Positions 6,739-17,725 of a stretch of DNA of 64,000 nt are shown in pieces. The stretch is from Bradyrhizobium diazoefficiens. GTDB lineage: Bacteria > Pseudomonadota > Alphaproteobacteria > Rhizobiales > Xanthobacteraceae. Positions within the stretch are counted from its first letter, which is position 1, and each line of letters begins with the position of its first letter. The stretch covers positions 62,001 through 126,000 of the forward strand of contig NZ_JAFCKW010000012.1 in assembly GCF_018129965.1 (NCBI RefSeq), read 5' to 3'. The notes under the pieces are model-generated. The model saw only the letters and a list, made by a program, of their open reading frames with translations. It was not told the origin of the DNA and searched no databases. A program made the translations under genes and the position numbers.

Positions 6739-8034
6739 TCACCCCGTCTCAACCTCACCGCGCCGGCTCGCCAGGATCTTGTCGATCCTTCGCCCGTCGA
6801 GATCGACGACCTCGATGTGCCAGCCATCGAAGTCGAAGGCATCGCCGACATTGGGCAGCACGTTGAATTGTTGCAGCACGAGGCCCGCCACCGTGTTGTA
6901 GCGATGCGGCGGCAGATCGATGCCGAGCAGTTCGCCGAATTCGTCGACCGGCATCCAGCCGGAGACCAGCAGCGAGTCGTCGTCACGCCGGACATAGGCC
7001 GGCTCCGGCGGTCCTTCCTCCGAATGGAAAGCGCCGACGATCGACTCGAGAATGTCGGCGGACGTCACGATGCCTTCGAAAGCGCCGTATTCGTCGTAGA
7101 CGAAACCGATGTGAACCGGCGCGGCGCGCAGGATCGCGAGCACGTCGCGCGCGTCGGCCGACGCAGGAATGCCGGGCGCCTCGCGCACCAGCGCGCGCAG
7201 GTCCGGAGTGCGTTCGTTCATGTAGGCGATCAGCAGGTCCTTGGCCTGAAGCACGCCGATCGGCTTGTCGCGGTCGCCGTCGGAGACGGGAAAGCGCGAA
7301 TGCGGGCTCGTCGCGATGACCTGTCGAATGGCCTCTGGCGTATCGCTCAGGTCGATCTCGTCGACCTCCGTGCGCGGCGTCATAACGGCGCCGACCGGCC
7401 GGTCGCCGAGCCGCATCACGCCGGCGATCATCTCCTTCTCGCCGGGCTCGAGCACGCCGGCGCTTTCCGCCTCGCTGACGAGATGATGAATCTCGTCCTC
7501 CGACACCTTTTCCTCGCCCTTGCCGCCGCGGCCGAGCAACGTGAGGATCAGCTTGCCGGAGAGATCGAGCAGGAAGACGAGCGGCAGCGATATCTTCGCA
7601 AGCACGTGCATCGCCGGCGCAACCTTGACCGCGACGCTTTCGGGATCGCGCAGCGCCACCTGTTTCGGCACCAGTTCCCCGACGATCAGCGTCGCATACG
7701 TGATGAGGGTGACCACGATGCCGACGCCGACGATGTCGGCGACGCCAGCCGAGAGACCGGCCTCGACCAGCCATTGCGTCAGGCGCTGGCCCAGCGTCGC
7801 GCCGGAGAACGCGCCCGAGAGCACGCCGACAAGGGTGATGCCGATCTGCACGGTCGAGAGGAACTTGCCCGGATCGGCCGCCAGCGTCAGCGCACGCTCG
7901 GCGCCGCGCACGCCCTTGGCGGCAAGCAGCGATAGCCGCGCCGGCCGCGACGAGACCACGGCCAGCTCGGACATGGATAACAGGCCGTTAATGACGATCA
8001 GGACGACGACGATGATGAGTTCGACGGACAACAT
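6739..8034 (-). CDS. CNNM/CorC-HlyC family membrane protein with CBS pair
   Basis: A 431-residue inner-membrane protein, often called hemolysin-like but related to the CNNM/CorB magnesium or cobalt transport proteins. Residues 1-150 form the DUF21 membrane domain with about four segments (start MLSVELIIVVVLIVINGLLS, then a glycine-rich GITLVGVLSGAFSGATLG region). Residues about 200-320 carry two CBS motifs, which bind adenine nucleotides (VMTPRTEVDEIDL, VLQAKDLL, VLAILRAAPVHIGFVYDEYG). The last 80 residues form the CorC_HlyC ion-transport-associated domain (DDDSLLVSGWMPVDEFGELLG). The ATG start gives an immediate first membrane helix, although no good ribosome site is visible. Function as a divalent-cation exporter is from family knowledge; real hemolysin activity is unlikely. 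Confidence 0.88.
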   Translation of the reverse strand: MLSVELIIVVVLIVINGLLSMSELAVVSSRPARLSLLAAKGVRGAERALTLAADPGKFLSTVQIGITLVGVLSGAFSGATLGQRLTQWLVEAGLSAGVADIVGVGIVVTLITYATLIVGELVPKQVALRDPESVAVKVAPAMHVLAKISLPLVFLLDLSGKLILTLLGRGGKGEEKVSEDEIHHLVSEAESAGVLEPGEKEMIAGVMRLGDRPVGAVMTPRTEVDEIDLSDTPEAIRQVIATSPHSRFPVSDGDRDKPIGVLQAKDLLIAYMNERTPDLRALVREAPGIPASADARDVLAILRAAPVHIGFVYDEYGAFEGIVTSADILESIVGAFHSEEGPPEPAYVRRDDDSLLVSGWMPVDEFGELLGIDLPPHRYNTVAGLVLQQFNVLPNVGDAFDFDGWHIEVVDLDGRRIDKILASRRGEVETG

Positions 8035-8533
8035 TGTACGCTGGGGAGAGGGATGTGAGTTCCGGCGGGCACCGGGCCAAGCGCGTTATATATGAACTCG
8101 CCCTGCCTTTTGCCCGGTTCCGACCAAATTGTCGCAGCCTGATCGTCCGGTGCGGTTTCGAGGCCAGGGGCACCCATTATGGACGAAAGTCCGAATACCG
8201 GGACCTCATAGGCCGCGATCTCAGGCCCGGCCGGCTGCCGGGCCGGAGACCATTCGCTGGCGCGCGAGAACGTGACGGCCACCCGATACCTTGCCGCCTC
8301 AATCTCAACGAATCCGTTTAAGCGGCGTTAATGATGCCGTCTTGCTGGCAGGCGCCTGGATCGGTTGCAGACCGTCTTTATGGATTGCGCGTAAGCGTTG
8401 ATTAAGCCGCGCTATCCATATTCGCATCCGTAAAGAGCGAGTTGATCGGCTGCAGAAAATTCGTGGCCTCTTCCGGTTGCAAGTCGCCTGGAAGAAGTCT
8501 CGACTGCAGCAAAGGCAGTCAGGTGAAGGTCAA
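8035..8533. other. Divergent intergenic region between the CBS protein and Tad-like genes
   Basis: About 500 bases with no convincing gene; short open frames on both strands lack ribosome sites and resemble no family. It contains a strong GGCCCGG/CCGGGCC hairpin around 8223-8244 and an AT-richer part from 8300 to 8450 that should hold the promoter for the Tad-like genes. TTAA-N6-TTAA at 8318-8331 resembles a CtrA half-site pair but has the wrong spacing (7 is canonical). Confidence 0.5.
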
Positions 8534-11238: not shown

Positions 11239-12543
11239 TCAGCCCGGATTCTCCAGGCTGAACGTCTCGGATTGCTCGTCATAGGCGAACAGCTCGGCAT
11301 AGCGGCCCCAGGAGACCACGGTCTTCAACGTCTCGTCCGCATAGTCTTCGGACATGTAGTCTTCGAGTTCGTTGCGGAACCGCGCCGCAGGCGCGGTGTG
11401 CGACGGGCGTTCGTCGAGCACGCGGCGGATCAATCCCATCACGGGCACGTAAGCGACGAGATGCTCTGCGAACAGCCTCTTGCGTGCGTCGGTCTCGAGA
11501 TGGGCAAAGCGCTTGCCGGCGTCGGTCAGCATCAGGTCGCCTTCACTGAGCTGGGCAAACCGCAACAGCTGCAGCGACTCGCCGAGATGGAGGATCTCGT
11601 CTGCCTCGAACTGGAGCTGGCTTGCGAGCACCGGCAGGTCGGCATGTCCGTCATAGGGCTGCCCGGCCAGCGCCTCGATCAGGCCGGACAGCACGTTGGA
11701 CGAGACGTGATGAAGCGCCATTCCGACGCCGGATCCGGGAATGCCGTCGTTGGCCGGTGTCCTCGGCTCCGCGCGTTGGGTCATGCGGGCATAGATGCTG
11801 TCGACGAGCTGGCGGAAATGCGGATCGAGCCTGTTGCGTGGATGGTTCAGCTCGACCTTGATTTCGGCGGCGACGCGGCCCGGATTGGACGAGAACACCA
11901 GGATGCGGTCGCACATCAGCACCGCTTCCTCGATATTGTGCGTCACCATGAGGATCGATTTGATCGGCAGGCGGCCTTCCGTCCACAGATCGATCAGATC
12001 GGTGCGCAGCGTCTCTGCCGTCAGCACGTCCAGCGCCGAGAACGGCTCGTCCATCAGGAGCAGGTCCGGGTGTACCACCAAGGCACGCGCAAAACCGACG
12101 CGCTGCCGCATGCCGCCCGAAAGCTCCTTGGGATAGGCCGACTCGAAGCCGTCGAGGCCGATCAGGTCGATCGCCGCCAGCGCGCGCTTGCGGCGTTCGG
12201 CGGCATCGATCCCGAGCGCTTCCAGCCCGAGCTCGACGTTCTGAAGGACCGTCAGCCACGGGAACAGGGCGAACGACTGGAACACCATGGCGACGCCGTT
12301 CGGCGGACCGGCGATGGTCTCGCCGCGACACGCTGCCCGGCCTGACGAGGGCTGTATCAAGCCGGCGATGATGCGCAGCAGCGTCGACTTGCCGGAGCCG
12401 GAACGGCCGAGCAGGCCGACGATCTCGCCGGAGCGGATCGTCAGGTCGACGTTTTCCAGCACGAGAAGCTCCTCGCCGCTCCCCTTCGGAAACGACCGGC
12501 AGACGCTACGGATATCGACGAGAGCAGGGGGATGATCGAGCAT
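11239..12543 (-). CDS. ABC transporter ATPase (NitT/TauT type) with AAA-associated C-terminal domain
   Basis: About 434 residues from the ATG at 12543, which has GAGGAG 7 bases upstream; the longer reading to 12591 overlaps the permease gene and is not favoured. Residues 1-250 are a standard nucleotide-binding domain: GRSGSGKS (46-53), Q-loop in VFQSFALFPWLT, signature LSGGMRQR, Walker B LLLMDEPFSALD and the switch histidine in MVTHNIEEA. Residues about 285-434 form an extra domain of the AAA_assoc_C kind found on some nitrate/sulfonate-type ATPases. It follows the fused permease by 13 bases and is the last gene of a minus-strand operon. It energises import through that permease; the extra domain presumably regulates activity, but its ligand is not known to me. 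Confidence 0.9.
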   Translation of the reverse strand: MLDHPPALVDIRSVCRSFPKGSGEELLVLENVDLTIRSGEIVGLLGRSGSGKSTLLRIIAGLIQPSSGRAACRGETIAGPPNGVAMVFQSFALFPWLTVLQNVELGLEALGIDAAERRKRALAAIDLIGLDGFESAYPKELSGGMRQRVGFARALVVHPDLLLMDEPFSALDVLTAETLRTDLIDLWTEGRLPIKSILMVTHNIEEAVLMCDRILVFSSNPGRVAAEIKVELNHPRNRLDPHFRQLVDSIYARMTQRAEPRTPANDGIPGSGVGMALHHVSSNVLSGLIEALAGQPYDGHADLPVLASQLQFEADEILHLGESLQLLRFAQLSEGDLMLTDAGKRFAHLETDARKRLFAEHLVAYVPVMGLIRRVLDERPSHTAPAARFRNELEDYMSEDYADETLKTVVSWGRYAELFAYDEQSETFSLENPG

Positions 12544-12556
12544 GATGGTCTCCTCG

Positions 12557-14302
12557 TCAGCCAAGCCGCAGGCGGCGTTCGCCGAATGCATAGAGCGGCC
12601 GCCAGACCAGACGGTTGAACAGCGTTACCAGGACGCACATCGTGGCGATTCCGAGCACGACGCGCGGAAAATCGCCGGCCTCCGTCGCGGACGCGATATA
12701 GGCGCCAAGTCCTGTGGCCTTCAGATGCGTGTCGCCCCAGCTTGCCACCTCGGCAACGATCGAGGCGTTCCAGGAGCCGCCGGAGGCCGTGATCGCGCCT
12801 GTCACGTAATAGGGGAAGATGCCCGGCAGGATCGCCTTGAACCACCATCGCCACCCCCGAAGATGGAAGCTGCCGGCGGCTTCGCGCAGATCGGTCGGGA
12901 AGGCGCTCGCGCCGGCGATCACGTTGAACAGGATGTACCATTGCGTCCCCAGGATCATCAGCGGGCTCAGCCAGATGTCGGGATTGAGCTTGAGGCCGAC
13001 GATTGCGACGACGAAGACGGGGAAGGCAAGATTGGCGGGGAAGGCCGCCAGAAACTGCGCGAGCGGCTGGACCCGTTCGGCGAGCTTCGGTCGAAGTCCG
13101 ATCCACACGCCGATCGGCACCCAGATCATGGTGGCGAGGCTGATCAACACCACGACGCGCAACAGGGTGATCAATCCGTCGCGGACGACGGCGACGACAT
13201 CGCTGGCGCCGATCTCGACCGAGAGATAGCGAAAGGTCAGCCACGCCGCGTAGCCGGTGCTGCCAAGCACCATGGCGATCCATAGCGCGTCGATCATGCG
13301 CGACGGACGACCCTTGGCGCGATCCCTGGCGCGTCCCGCAGGCGATAGGCTCGGCAGCGAGATGGGCAGATTCGAAATCACGCGGTTCATTGCCGCAAAG
13401 GGAATGGTGATGGCGCGCAGCGCGCGGGTGCGCCGGAACAGGTCGAGCATCCAGGAGTTCGGCGCTTCCCCAGATGCGGTCTGCTCGAAGCGGAATTTGT
13501 CGGCCCAGGCGACGATCGGCCGGAACAGCAACTGGTCATAGGCGATGATGACGAACAGCATCGCGAGGATGGCGTAGAAGATCGCGGCAAGATTCTGCTC
13601 CTGGATCGCCATCGCGACATAGGAGCCGATGCCCGGCAGCGTCACGGTGGTGTTGCCGACGGTGATGGCCTCCGACGCAACCACGAAGAACCAGCCGCCC
13701 GACATCGACATCATCGCGTTCCAGATCAGGCCGGGCATCGCGAACGGCACGTCGAGACGCCAGAAGCGCTGCCATCCCGACAGATGAAAGCTTTGGGTCG
13801 CCTCTTCCAGATCCTTCGGCACGTTGCGGATCGACTGGTACATGCTGAACGTCATGTTCCAGGCCTGGCTCGTGAAGATCGCGAACACCGAGGCCAGTTC
13901 GGCGCCGAGGACCTGCCCCGGAAACAGGTTCATGAAGAACACGACCGTGAAGGTGAGGAAGCCCAGGATCGGCACCGACTGGAGGATGTCGAGCAGCGGG
14001 ATCATAACCATTTCGGCACGGCGGCTCTTGGCTGCGAGCGCCGCGTAGGCGAAGGTGAAGACCGTCGAACAGACGATCGCCAGCAGCATCCGCAGCACGG
14101 TGCGCAGCGCGTAGAGCGGCAGGTTCGCCGGATCGAGCGAGACCGGGGCGCGCTCGAGCTCGGACAAAGGCGCAATGGTCTGCTCGCCGCCGTAGACGAT
14201 CAGCACCATCGCGCCAATCACGAGGATCAGCGCGGCAGCGTCCCAGATATTGGGGCGCAGCGCCCGGCCGATTGCGGCGGTGCGGATATCCCTCGGCTTC
14301 AT
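12557..14302 (-). CDS. Fused double ABC transporter permease (NitT/TauT type)
   Basis: A 581-residue inner-membrane protein that contains two complete permease domains in one chain, so it can form the whole channel alone. Domain 1 (residues about 25-275) and domain 2 (about 340-575) each have five to six membrane segments and an EAA coupling loop: EEATQSFHLSGWQRFWRLD near residue 170 and REAAGSFHLRGWRWWF near residue 465. The start has AGGGGGG about 8 bases ahead and lies 20 bases after the stop of the porin gene. The ATPase follows 13 bases later. No binding-protein gene is in the operon. Similar fused permeases are annotated as nitrate/sulfonate/taurine or bicarbonate importers, but the substrate cannot be read from sequence. 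Confidence 0.88.
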   Translation of the reverse strand: MKPRDIRTAAIGRALRPNIWDAAALILVIGAMVLIVYGGEQTIAPLSELERAPVSLDPANLPLYALRTVLRMLLAIVCSTVFTFAYAALAAKSRRAEMVMIPLLDILQSVPILGFLTFTVVFFMNLFPGQVLGAELASVFAIFTSQAWNMTFSMYQSIRNVPKDLEEATQSFHLSGWQRFWRLDVPFAMPGLIWNAMMSMSGGWFFVVASEAITVGNTTVTLPGIGSYVAMAIQEQNLAAIFYAILAMLFVIIAYDQLLFRPIVAWADKFRFEQTASGEAPNSWMLDLFRRTRALRAITIPFAAMNRVISNLPISLPSLSPAGRARDRAKGRPSRMIDALWIAMVLGSTGYAAWLTFRYLSVEIGASDVVAVVRDGLITLLRVVVLISLATMIWVPIGVWIGLRPKLAERVQPLAQFLAAFPANLAFPVFVVAIVGLKLNPDIWLSPLMILGTQWYILFNVIAGASAFPTDLREAAGSFHLRGWRWWFKAILPGIFPYYVTGAITASGGSWNASIVAEVASWGDTHLKATGLGAYIASATEAGDFPRVVLGIATMCVLVTLFNRLVWRPLYAFGERRLRLG

Positions 14303-16605: not shown

Positions 16606-16845
16606 TCAGGAATTGCAATCATCGAGACCGTTCCGTTCAAGATGTCGAGGTCGGCGACCACCTAGAATCAGCCGGGCCCCTATCCGCTCCAGCATGCGCG
16701 TCGCGGACAGGAGGACCAGCAGAGACTTGCGTGAGATCGCATGGTTGCTGTGGAGCGCAATGGCGCAACGCAGCCTCTTACTGGAGAGGCGAAGCGTTGC
16801 GATCGCCGCCCAGCGACGCCATTCGGCGACCATCGTGCCGATCAC
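16606..16845 (-). CDS. Small hypothetical protein, coupled to the preceding small gene
   Basis: A possible 79-residue basic protein starting at a GTG (16845) that shares four bases (GTGA) with the stop of the small gene upstream, the arrangement of translational coupling. An internal ATG follows four codons later. The sequence is rich in Arg, Leu and Ala, with a hydrophobic helix-like middle (SRKSLLVLLSATRMLERIGARL). Codon use is acceptable for the genome. No family is recognised and no separate ribosome site is visible, so it may not be real. Confidence 0.35.
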   Translation of the reverse strand: MIGTMVAEWRRWAAIATLRLSSKRLRCAIALHSNHAISRKSLLVLLSATRMLERIGARLILGGRRPRHLERNGLDDCNS

Positions 16846-17096
16846 GTGACAGCCAAAGACGGTCGGGGCACGCCTGTCACATGGCCGTGCGTCGTGCCGG
16901 GAGCTTCGCCCTCGCTGTACCAGTAACAGGTCGGCCTTTTTCCGGCCGTGATGACCCAGCGGCAGCGGAGCGTCTGGTCCTCCGTGAACCGGCGAGATCG
17001 GCGTGCCGCCCGCTGGTTGTCGTTGGCGGGCCCGAGCTGCCGCGGTTGCACCCGCTGAACCGCAAACGCATGCATTCGTGCGAATGTCTTGAACAT
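16842..17096 (-). CDS. Small hypothetical protein (84 aa)
   Basis: An 84-residue protein not recognised by family. The support is a very good ribosome site, GGAGGTG at 17101-17107, four bases before the ATG. The first 40 residues are basic and probably disordered (RVQPRQLGPANDNQRAARRSR); the second half has a compact pattern TLRCRWVITAGKRPTCYWYS with two Cys and three aromatic residues, reminiscent of short Bradyrhizobium proteins of unknown role. It is transcribed away from the DUF156 regulator, sharing a 314-base divergent region with it, and so could be one of that regulator's targets. Confidence 0.55.
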   Translation of the reverse strand: MFKTFARMHAFAVQRVQPRQLGPANDNQRAARRSRRFTEDQTLRCRWVITAGKRPTCYWYSEGEAPGTTHGHVTGVPRPSLAVT

Positions 17097-17355
17097 CGCT
17101 CACCTCCAATTCCGCTCCGCGCGGCAGGTCGGTGAGCAGCGCAACCTGCTATCGCCGGTCGCCAGTCCTCACGCGGCCATGGCCGTCGCGATCTCCGATG
17201 TTCCGGCATCGCTTGCCGGTCCGGAGAGCCGACGTCACGTTGCCAAAGTTGTTACTGCCCATGGCTCTTCGTCTGGTTTCGTTGATCGTCCGAAAGCAAA
17301 GTTCCCGACGTGAAGGCCGCATACGCCCGTGCCGATGGCCCGTCAAGCAGGATTT
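17097..17355. other. Divergent intergenic region upstream of the DUF156 regulator
   Basis: The 314-base gap between the minus-strand small gene and the regulator; apart from the operator pair at its right end, I see no gene. It must hold promoters for both sides. No confident hexamer pair can be named. Confidence 0.4.
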
Positions 17356-17399
17356 GATATCCAGGGGGGAGGATATGCGATATCCTGCCGGGGAGGATA
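17356..17399 (+). promoter_or_regulatory. Two tandem G-tract operators for a CsoR/RcnR/FrmR-type repressor
   Basis: Copy 1 (17356-17376) reads GATATCC, A, six G, A, GGATAT; copy 2 (17379-17399) reads GATATCC, TGCC, four G, A, GGATA. Each is an inverted repeat (ATATCC/GGATAT) around a G-tract. DUF156 repressors (RcnR, FrmR, CsoR) bind G-tracts flanked by AT-rich inverted repeats. The copies start 23 bases apart, about two helical turns, and end just before the ribosome site of the DUF156 gene, which argues for autoregulation. Confidence 0.7.
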
Positions 17400-17410
17400 A
17401 GGAGGTTGCT

Positions 17411-17677
17411 ATGCCGGATCACGTTAACCGTTCGATCGCGCGGCGTCTGAAGCGGGCCAGCGGTCATCTCGAGGCGATCATTGCAATGGTCGAGCAGGGT
17501 CGATCCTGCGCCGAGATCGCGCAGCAATTGCAGGCGGTGGAAAGCGCGATTGAAAACGCCAAGAAGGCGCTGGTCCACGACCATCTCAGCCACAGCCTGG
17601 AAAAGTCGTTTGGTCCGGCCGGCGCGAAGGCTCGGACCCCCCTCAGGGATTTCAACCTGGTCGCGAAATATCTGTGA
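17411..17677 (+). CDS. Metal- or aldehyde-sensing DUF156 transcriptional repressor (CsoR/RcnR/FrmR family)
   Basis: An 88-residue all-helical repressor with an excellent ribosome site (AAGGAGG, 17399-17405) before the ATG. Family hallmarks are RRLKRASGHLEAIIAMVEQGRSC, with the key cysteine in the R-S-C-x-E-I motif (about residue 36), QQLQAVESAIENAKKALVHDHLSH with the histidine of the second ligand position, and tetramer-forming helices. The position that holds the second Cys in CsoR copper sensors is Ser here (DHLSHS), so a classical C-H-C Cu(I) site looks incomplete; an N-terminal His (MPDH) is reminiscent of RcnR. Ligand could be a metal or formaldehyde. No efflux pump, copper chaperone or formaldehyde dehydrogenase lies nearby, so the regulon beyond its own operators is unknown. 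Confidence 0.88.
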   Translation: MPDHVNRSIARRLKRASGHLEAIIAMVEQGRSCAEIAQQLQAVESAIENAKKALVHDHLSHSLEKSFGPAGAKARTPLRDFNLVAKYL

Positions 17678-17695: not shown

Positions 17696-17725
17696 GACCC
17701 GCCCGGGGGGACAGCCGGGCGGGTC
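17696..17725 (+). terminator. Strong hairpin after the DUF156 gene
   Basis: An 11-base perfect stem (GACCCGCCCGG / CCGGGCGGGTC) with an 8-base loop, 18 bases after the stop codon. There is no T-tract, so it may end or stabilise the transcript without being a classical intrinsic terminator. Confidence 0.5.

Follow-up and report, generated by a model that had tools for sequence, protein, structure and literature searches.

Repression of metal export is the role for which members of the CsoR/RcnR (DUF156) family are best known. In RcnR the last metal ligand is a His four residues after the His at position Y, a place at which the regulator described here has a Ser, with a His at +3. InrS of Synechocystis belongs to the same family, and is not known from a divergon with NRAMP, porin or ABC genes.

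PMC7055735 places two TACT-G6-N-AGTA sites in the rcnR–rcnA intergenic region of Escherichia coli, and a title cited there states that both genes are repressed through a shared operator. The locus studied here resembles the RcnR system in its DUF156 regulator, its G-tract inverted repeats and the presence of two sites in a divergent region; it differs in that RcnR controls an exporter and recognizes TACT-G6-N-AGTA, unlike the ATCC..GGAT of our sequence. The same paper reports that InrS enhances the nik import genes and also regulates an exporter, a positive action on import that makes it a second relevant precedent, while it describes InrS as retaining a Cys-His-Cys site where our regulator has Cys-His-Ser. 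In Bradyrhizobium, the copper CsoR of the csoR-cueA divergon (PMC5057107) has the family and the divergent layout in common with our locus, whereas the copper CsoR type is represented in the present genome by separate paralogues (D1–D3) beside large divergent genes of 600–818 aa. Among the matches listed, the nearest relatives outside the lineage are NreA-type regulators and NicO-adjacent proteobacterial proteins, which keep the Cys at position Z, unlike the Bradyrhizobium clade; the name NreA is taken from a paper on Sphingobium (PMC5557971) and is applied to the NicO-adjacent relatives by likeness only. The family, the G-tract sites and the divergent layout are already known; searches of open-licence papers brought up no mention of a DUF156–NRAMP/ABC divergon, of an uptake-type operon as a conserved partner, of a fixed spacing or of a lost ligand.

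The window, a stretch of 64,000 nucleotides from Bradyrhizobium diazoefficiens, carries the following features around the regulator gene.

17411..17677, plus strand, DUF156 (CsoR/RcnR family) regulator of 88 aa, with Cys33, His58 and Ser62 at positions X, Y and Z and an extra His61
17399..17405, plus strand, Shine-Dalgarno sequence AAGGAGG of the regulator, overlapping the end of operator 2
17380..17400, no strand, putative operator 2 beside the regulator gene, ATATCC-TGCCGGGGA-GGATAA, with an N9 centre
17357..17376, no strand, putative operator 1 beside the divergent promoter, ATATCC-AGGGGGGA-GGATAT; the tandem is kept in orthologues
17341..17346, minus strand, -35-like box (TTGACG) for the divergent operon, separated from the operator core by 12 bp, named from position and pattern only
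17318..17323, minus strand, weak -10-like hexamer TATGCG, 17 bp past the -35-like box
16842..17096, minus strand, first divergent gene, a small conserved protein of 84 aa with no Pfam match; 40 of 42 orthologous loci have a homologue no more than 3 kb away
16606..16833, minus strand, second small open reading frame (75 aa), which over 60 aa shares 48% identity with its counterpart in locus L061
14322..16661, minus strand, outer-membrane protein with an OMP_b-brl and then an OprB porin domain (Pfam)
12557..14302, minus strand, double-domain ABC permease with two BPD_transp_1 stretches (Pfam)
11239..12591, minus strand, ABC ATPase with a C-terminal AAA_assoc_C domain (Pfam)

The regulator reading frame opens with an ATG at 17411 and ends at 17677, and its product matches PF02583 (Trns_repr_metal) above the curated cut-off (E 1.7e-19, 70.4 bits against 22.8). 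Alignment to M. tuberculosis CsoR (2hh7) places Cys33 at the first Cys, His58 at the His and Ser62 at the second Cys, which bears out the original prediction that a Ser replaces the second Cys of CsoR; with Ser62 at Z, the regulator lacks the Cys-His-Cys site of CsoR. Compared with the W-X-Y-Z site of RcnR, it has His4, Cys33 and His58, with Ser at Z and His61 at +3. Its scores against the NCBIfam equivalogs of RcnR (20.1 bits, cut-off 138) and FrmR (24.5 bits, cut-off 133) are below cut-off. An AlphaFold model built from a 15-row alignment (mean pLDDT 81.7) predicts three helices, Cys33 opening helix 2, which starts at that residue; when the model was submitted to Foldseek, the top 20 rows were CsoR, InrS, CstR and FrmR chains, the best at E 7.3e-3 and none at or below 0.001. 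Just past the regulator stop lies a perfect 11-bp inverted repeat with an 8-base loop and no T run (17696–17725).

Upstream of the gene we found the G-tract inverted-repeat operator expected of a DUF156 protein. The two putative operators start 23 bp apart, with 7 bp between their ATCC..GGAT cores. Two G-tract repeats 23 bases apart had been predicted, and by its letters the pair is there; what needed correction is the second repeat, which has an N9 centre and ends in GGATAA, the form ATATCC-N8-GGATAT being exact for operator 1 only. A sigma-70 promoter scan returned no promoter at the divergent -35/-10-like site, and a terminator scan was likewise empty. Over the -10-like position (17310–17330 in the window), GGC-N(5-7)-GCC, mostly around GTA, recurs in 45 of the 56 distinct loci defined below.

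A total of 195 Bradyrhizobium genomes were searched with an orthologue threshold of E <= 1e-24, and an orthologue was present in 39 of them (42 genes). Of these 39 genomes, 33 carry the exact tandem ATCC-N8-GGAT-N7-ATCC-N8-GGAT, against 0 of the 156 without an orthologue (Fisher 1.3e-31, uncorrected for kinship and partly hand-counted). The six orthologue genomes without it carry an N9 variant (G000), one N6 site (G138) or one arm mismatch (G025, G105, G107 and G108). A looser tandem pattern matches 65 of the 195 genomes, with 0 matches for the reversed control; these are, by hand count, the 33 exact 8-7-8 genomes, G000 and G138, and the other 30 have no G-tract palindrome by eye. With at most one arm mismatch, the putative tandem ends 10–13 nt before the regulator ATG in 36 of the 42 orthologues and 59 nt before it in one, and no tandem was found in the 110 nt upstream of the remaining 5. 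When 33 distinct stretches were compared in register, the core arms held 1.95 bits per position versus 0.77 in the linker. Autoregulation, as the original prediction had proposed, appears well supported at the sequence level, by this placement before the ATG and by the tandem staying at the regulator even when the operon is elsewhere (genome G152, locus L145, and contig C34 of the present genome). A similar layout is also found in MAGs assigned to Xanthobacteraceae (L218), Hyphomicrobiales (L185) and Bradyrhizobiaceae (L187). The promoter stretch of a record titled Frankia sp. RB7 (L180) is identical to that of Bradyrhizobium G081 (L061), and the title is probably wrong.

The regulator had been described as an orphan, a description that we abandon: the adjoining minus-strand small protein, porin and ABC importer form a conserved divergent partner. 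Neighbours of the 42 orthologues were counted in stretches of about 16 kb, some ending at contig ends, using references from the window, L013, L012 and L049, loci that match themselves by construction; CzcA and FrmR-like labels were assigned from sequence and place. An OprB-type porin lies within 9 kb of 37 orthologues, an NRAMP within 8 kb of 29 and a creatininase gene near 27, followed by MgtC (6), CDF (3) and a FrmR-like gene (3); the double permease accompanies at least 11 and the ATPase at least 10, both lower bounds because many stretches end before those genes. The usual order is regulator, tandem, small protein on the opposite strand, then, where present, NRAMP and after it MgtC, and finally porin, permease and ATPase. 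A homologue of the small protein is absent within 3 kb at L061 and L145 only, and porin and ABC genes are both below thresholds at three of the 42 loci (L145, L013 and L062, the last a short contig). The window is one of the 13 loci without NRAMP. Consistent with what had been noted before, a Pfam scan of the eight neighbouring reading frames gave no recognisable metal pump (copper-exporting ATPases included), chaperone or formaldehyde gene.

The nearest NCBIfam models of the window permease are ntrB and choline permease, all below cut-off, and by resemblance the ABC pair may be a NitT/TauT-type importer. Two plasmids carry similar ABC genes; the Azospirillum one has MgtC, CDF and DmeF nearby and the Rhizobium one has none. 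The OMP_b-brl barrel and the OprB porin are fused in one long protein, with a homologue near 37 of the 42 orthologues, and the listed GTG start of its gene may be too early. In the seven small proteins that were read, from the window gene and its homologues, an NDN stretch and Cys-x-Trp-like motifs were seen.

The spacing of the element was followed in 69 loci, of which 56 are distinct after setting aside 12 duplicates and one locus without the element (L145). The linker between the operator cores measures 7 bp in 55 of the 56 and 6 bp in one (L218), and between the operator core and the divergent-strand TTGAC there are 12 bp in 52 loci, 13 bp in 2 and 22 bp in 2. With the stricter box CTTGAC and two mismatches allowed, 50 distinct loci gave 46, 1, 1 and 2 cases at 12, 13, 11 and 22 bp. 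Mean pairwise identity is 44% in the linker and 60% in the 12-bp gaps; the length of the spacer is thus constant while its letters vary, which argues for a geometric constraint, and since 22 equals 12 plus 10, a helical constraint can be argued for these loci of shared ancestry. Because of that ancestry the counts are not independent events, and the two 22-bp cases may be one. From TTGAC to the ATG of the small gene the distance is 192–328 in the 38 measurable loci, about 248–286 in 34 of them. L218 has more targets and looser spacing: its three separate sets of tandem and TTGAC, all in 11 kb, differ in gap (13, 11, 11) and in linker (6, 7, 7).

In four natural separations it is the divergent operon, rather than the regulator gene, that the TTGAC box accompanies. 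In G152, regulator and tandem lie near 1.32 Mb of a 7.71-Mb contig (L145) with none of the reference neighbours, and the operon lies near 7.42 Mb (L146) with its own tandem and TTGAC and no DUF156 match in its 16-kb stretch. Likewise, in G176 (L154), in G189 (L155) and on contig C34 of the present genome, the operon has tandem and TTGAC apart from the regulator's own sites, and TTGAC is absent from the regulator's own upstream region in L145, L154, L155 and L013. Since the separated operons keep both, the element is best read as part of the operon promoter as well as autoregulatory. A true orphan, with coincidental repeats and autoregulation only, might be suspected from the absence of an adjoining classical metal pump in the window and from the G152 regulator, which is alone among the reference genes sought; the tandem before the separated G152 operon, the spacing and the co-occurrence speak against it and make it very improbable. 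We consider it probable instead that the tandem sites are common to the regulator and the divergent set, the regulator repressing itself and controlling that set.

Further sites were sought in the assembly that contains the window (7.13 Mb, 54 contigs) by means of sequence patterns and the PF02583 profile, which gave 10 matches. A paralogue on C34 is 70% identical to the window regulator, also has Cys-His-Ser and carries two G-tract repeats of its own, and two sister regulators keep Cys-His-Cys. TATCC-N(6-11)-GGATA occurs at 17 places of the 7.13-Mb genome versus 8 for the reversed-pattern control. Seven of the 17, selected by inspection because their centres are G/C tracts or palindromes, fall at the window gene (2), at the C34 sister genes (1 and 2), at the C23 sister gene (1) and at the C34 small-protein/NRAMP set (1); the site adjoining the one before the C34 NRAMP lacks the outer T/A and was found through the tandem search. 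Among the other ten places, C1:174821 and C45:187762 score equally high on one measure. A looser pattern with a G/C centre has 23 forward and 27 reverse matches against 2 and 2 for the control; they include the known sites, and the rest, some 20 places, are without the outer T/A. The tandem G-tract sites at the regulator exceed chance. The genome search proposed with the original prediction has thus yielded chosen sites at the sister regulators on C34 and C23 and before the C34 NRAMP set, and remote targets, which had been left open, therefore have a first answer in the C34 copies.

In the mechanism that we favour, the regulator would be half of a conserved divergon. Two tetramers, as we infer, would sit side by side on the tandem operators on fixed helix faces; so bound, they would repress the gene of the regulator itself, whose ribosome site shares bases with operator 2, and would act on the divergent operon from a constant distance ahead of its -35-like box. 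This putative operon would, in the window, comprise the small protein, the small reading frame, the porin and the ABC importer. The modified site, made of the N-terminal His, Cys33, His58 and, probably substituting for the lost Cys, His61, would bind a divalent transition metal, and binding would release or remodel the regulator-operator complex.

The sign of control on the uptake operon is finely balanced. The metal-free form activating it has close to an even chance in our estimate and repression is likewise somewhat under even, so that we lean slightly to activation; a site wholly upstream of the -35 box, the phasing, the weak -10 and the uptake-type target would fit it, and it is favoured by the precedent of InrS on the nik import genes (PMC7055735). 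An ordinary RcnR/NreA-type derepressor, whose metal-free form would cover or wrap the shared region and repress both promoters until released by excess Ni/Co, has a real chance but falls short of an even one. Such derepression is the family rule, the shared divergent operator of RcnR (PMC7055735, as above) conforms to it, and the Cys-bearing sister regulators adjoin NicO on C34 and HlyD-type and cation-efflux genes on C23. However, the target looks like an uptake operon, which one would hardly expect excess metal to switch on unless the inducer is not the substrate, and the operator cores stop 12 bp upstream of the -35-like box.

The altered metal site, also part of the original prediction, proved to be a trait of the clade. 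Of the 42 orthologues, 34 have Ser at position Z, 3 have Gly, 1 has Asn and 4 have Cys, so that 38 are non-Cys; the Cys at X and the His at Y are kept in 42 of 42, and a His at +3 is present in all 38 non-Cys orthologues and in 0 of the 4 Cys ones. A simple swap, in which His at +3 replaces Cys at +4, is true of the 42 orthologues and was rejected more widely, as L168 (Asp) and L182 (Gln) have neither residue and many Cys-bearing relatives outside the lineage carry both. On a tree of 108 rows a single change between Cys and non-Cys suffices, consistent with the Cys having been lost once in this lineage. The tree left out duplicates and L189 (an over-long reading), the count was also made without L238 and two FrmR-like rows, and the tree was not used for rooting because the outgroup branches are very long (6–9). 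A ligand role for His61 is plausible, since PMC5016687 names the residue at +3 as a candidate for the fourth ligand in FrmR-E64H.

Among the best 80 of 225 relatives, those outside the lineage (L190–L244, L218 apart) are 47–58% identical to the window regulator; 15 of 54 lie directly before a NicO gene (at >=60% identity) and 39 do not, and their 110 bp upstream hold mostly one matching site or none. Because, within that best 80 of 225, 15 of the 54 nearest outside relatives directly precede NicO, a Ni/Co-type metal would by analogy be the most likely effector. In L218 the regulator (8001–8264 of one MAG contig; Pfam 58.7 bits) has Leu, Tyr and Ser in place of Cys33, His58 and Cys62 and keeps the tandem sites, with NRAMP, MgtC, CDF and a FrmR-like gene nearby. 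Given this ligand loss, and given that His61 is not universal (L168, L182), a metal effector may not be general, and the degraded site leaves room for other possible effectors, or none. One such effector would be a cysteine-reactive small molecule (formaldehyde or a persulfide) sensed by the lone Cys33 in place of a metal ion. The Cys is kept in every one of the 42 orthologues, and FrmR, according to PMC5016687, needs this Cys and Pro2 for formaldehyde sensing, Pro being present at residue 2 of the window regulator and in 15 of the 42 orthologues in all. On the other hand, 27 of the 42 have a residue other than Pro at position 2, none of the eight Pfam-scanned neighbours was recognised as frmA/frmB-like, the Cys is lost in L218 and the recurrent neighbours are transport genes; we therefore regard a cysteine-reactive effector as improbable.

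As to the divergent set, the closest solved relative of the C34 NRAMP is EleNRMT (PDB 7qia, E 4.7e-50; next 1.5e-23), a Mg2+/Mn2+ transporter of the NRAMP family. Helix 1 reads NDAGA and helix 6 GTTVAPW in each of the 32 NRAMP copies examined. Checked against the NRMT signature (DxxG in helix 1, TxxA/T in helix 6), they share the Thr-x-x-Ala of helix 6 with EleNRMT and differ in helix 1, where EleNRMT has Asp-x-x-Gly and the operon NRAMPs Asp-x-x-Ala, so that a substrate of the Mg/Mn type is a prediction only. If wired in this way, at a constant helical distance, the divergon would link sensing of a transition metal, or of another signal, to magnesium and manganese supply through an NRMT-type NRAMP, MgtC, porin and ABC importer. 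A bolder history, which we think doubtful, is that a DUF156 derepressor became a helix-phase-dependent activator of a Mg/Mn-type uptake operon while still repressing itself, its metal site being dismantled stepwise from Cys-His-Cys through Cys-His-Ser/Gly/Asn to the Leu-Tyr-Ser of L218 with operators and operon kept. Proteins that have lost metal ligands yet keep their operators form a natural series, which makes the family's needs for sensing and for regulating testable through four or five existing orthologues of the regulator. The present genome has six NRAMP matches, and three of these fall inside some 17 kb of C34; the region C34:258000–303000 (L013/L137/L138) forms a metal island in which three NRAMP genes, NicO, MgtC and three DUF156 regulators lie in about 20 kb.
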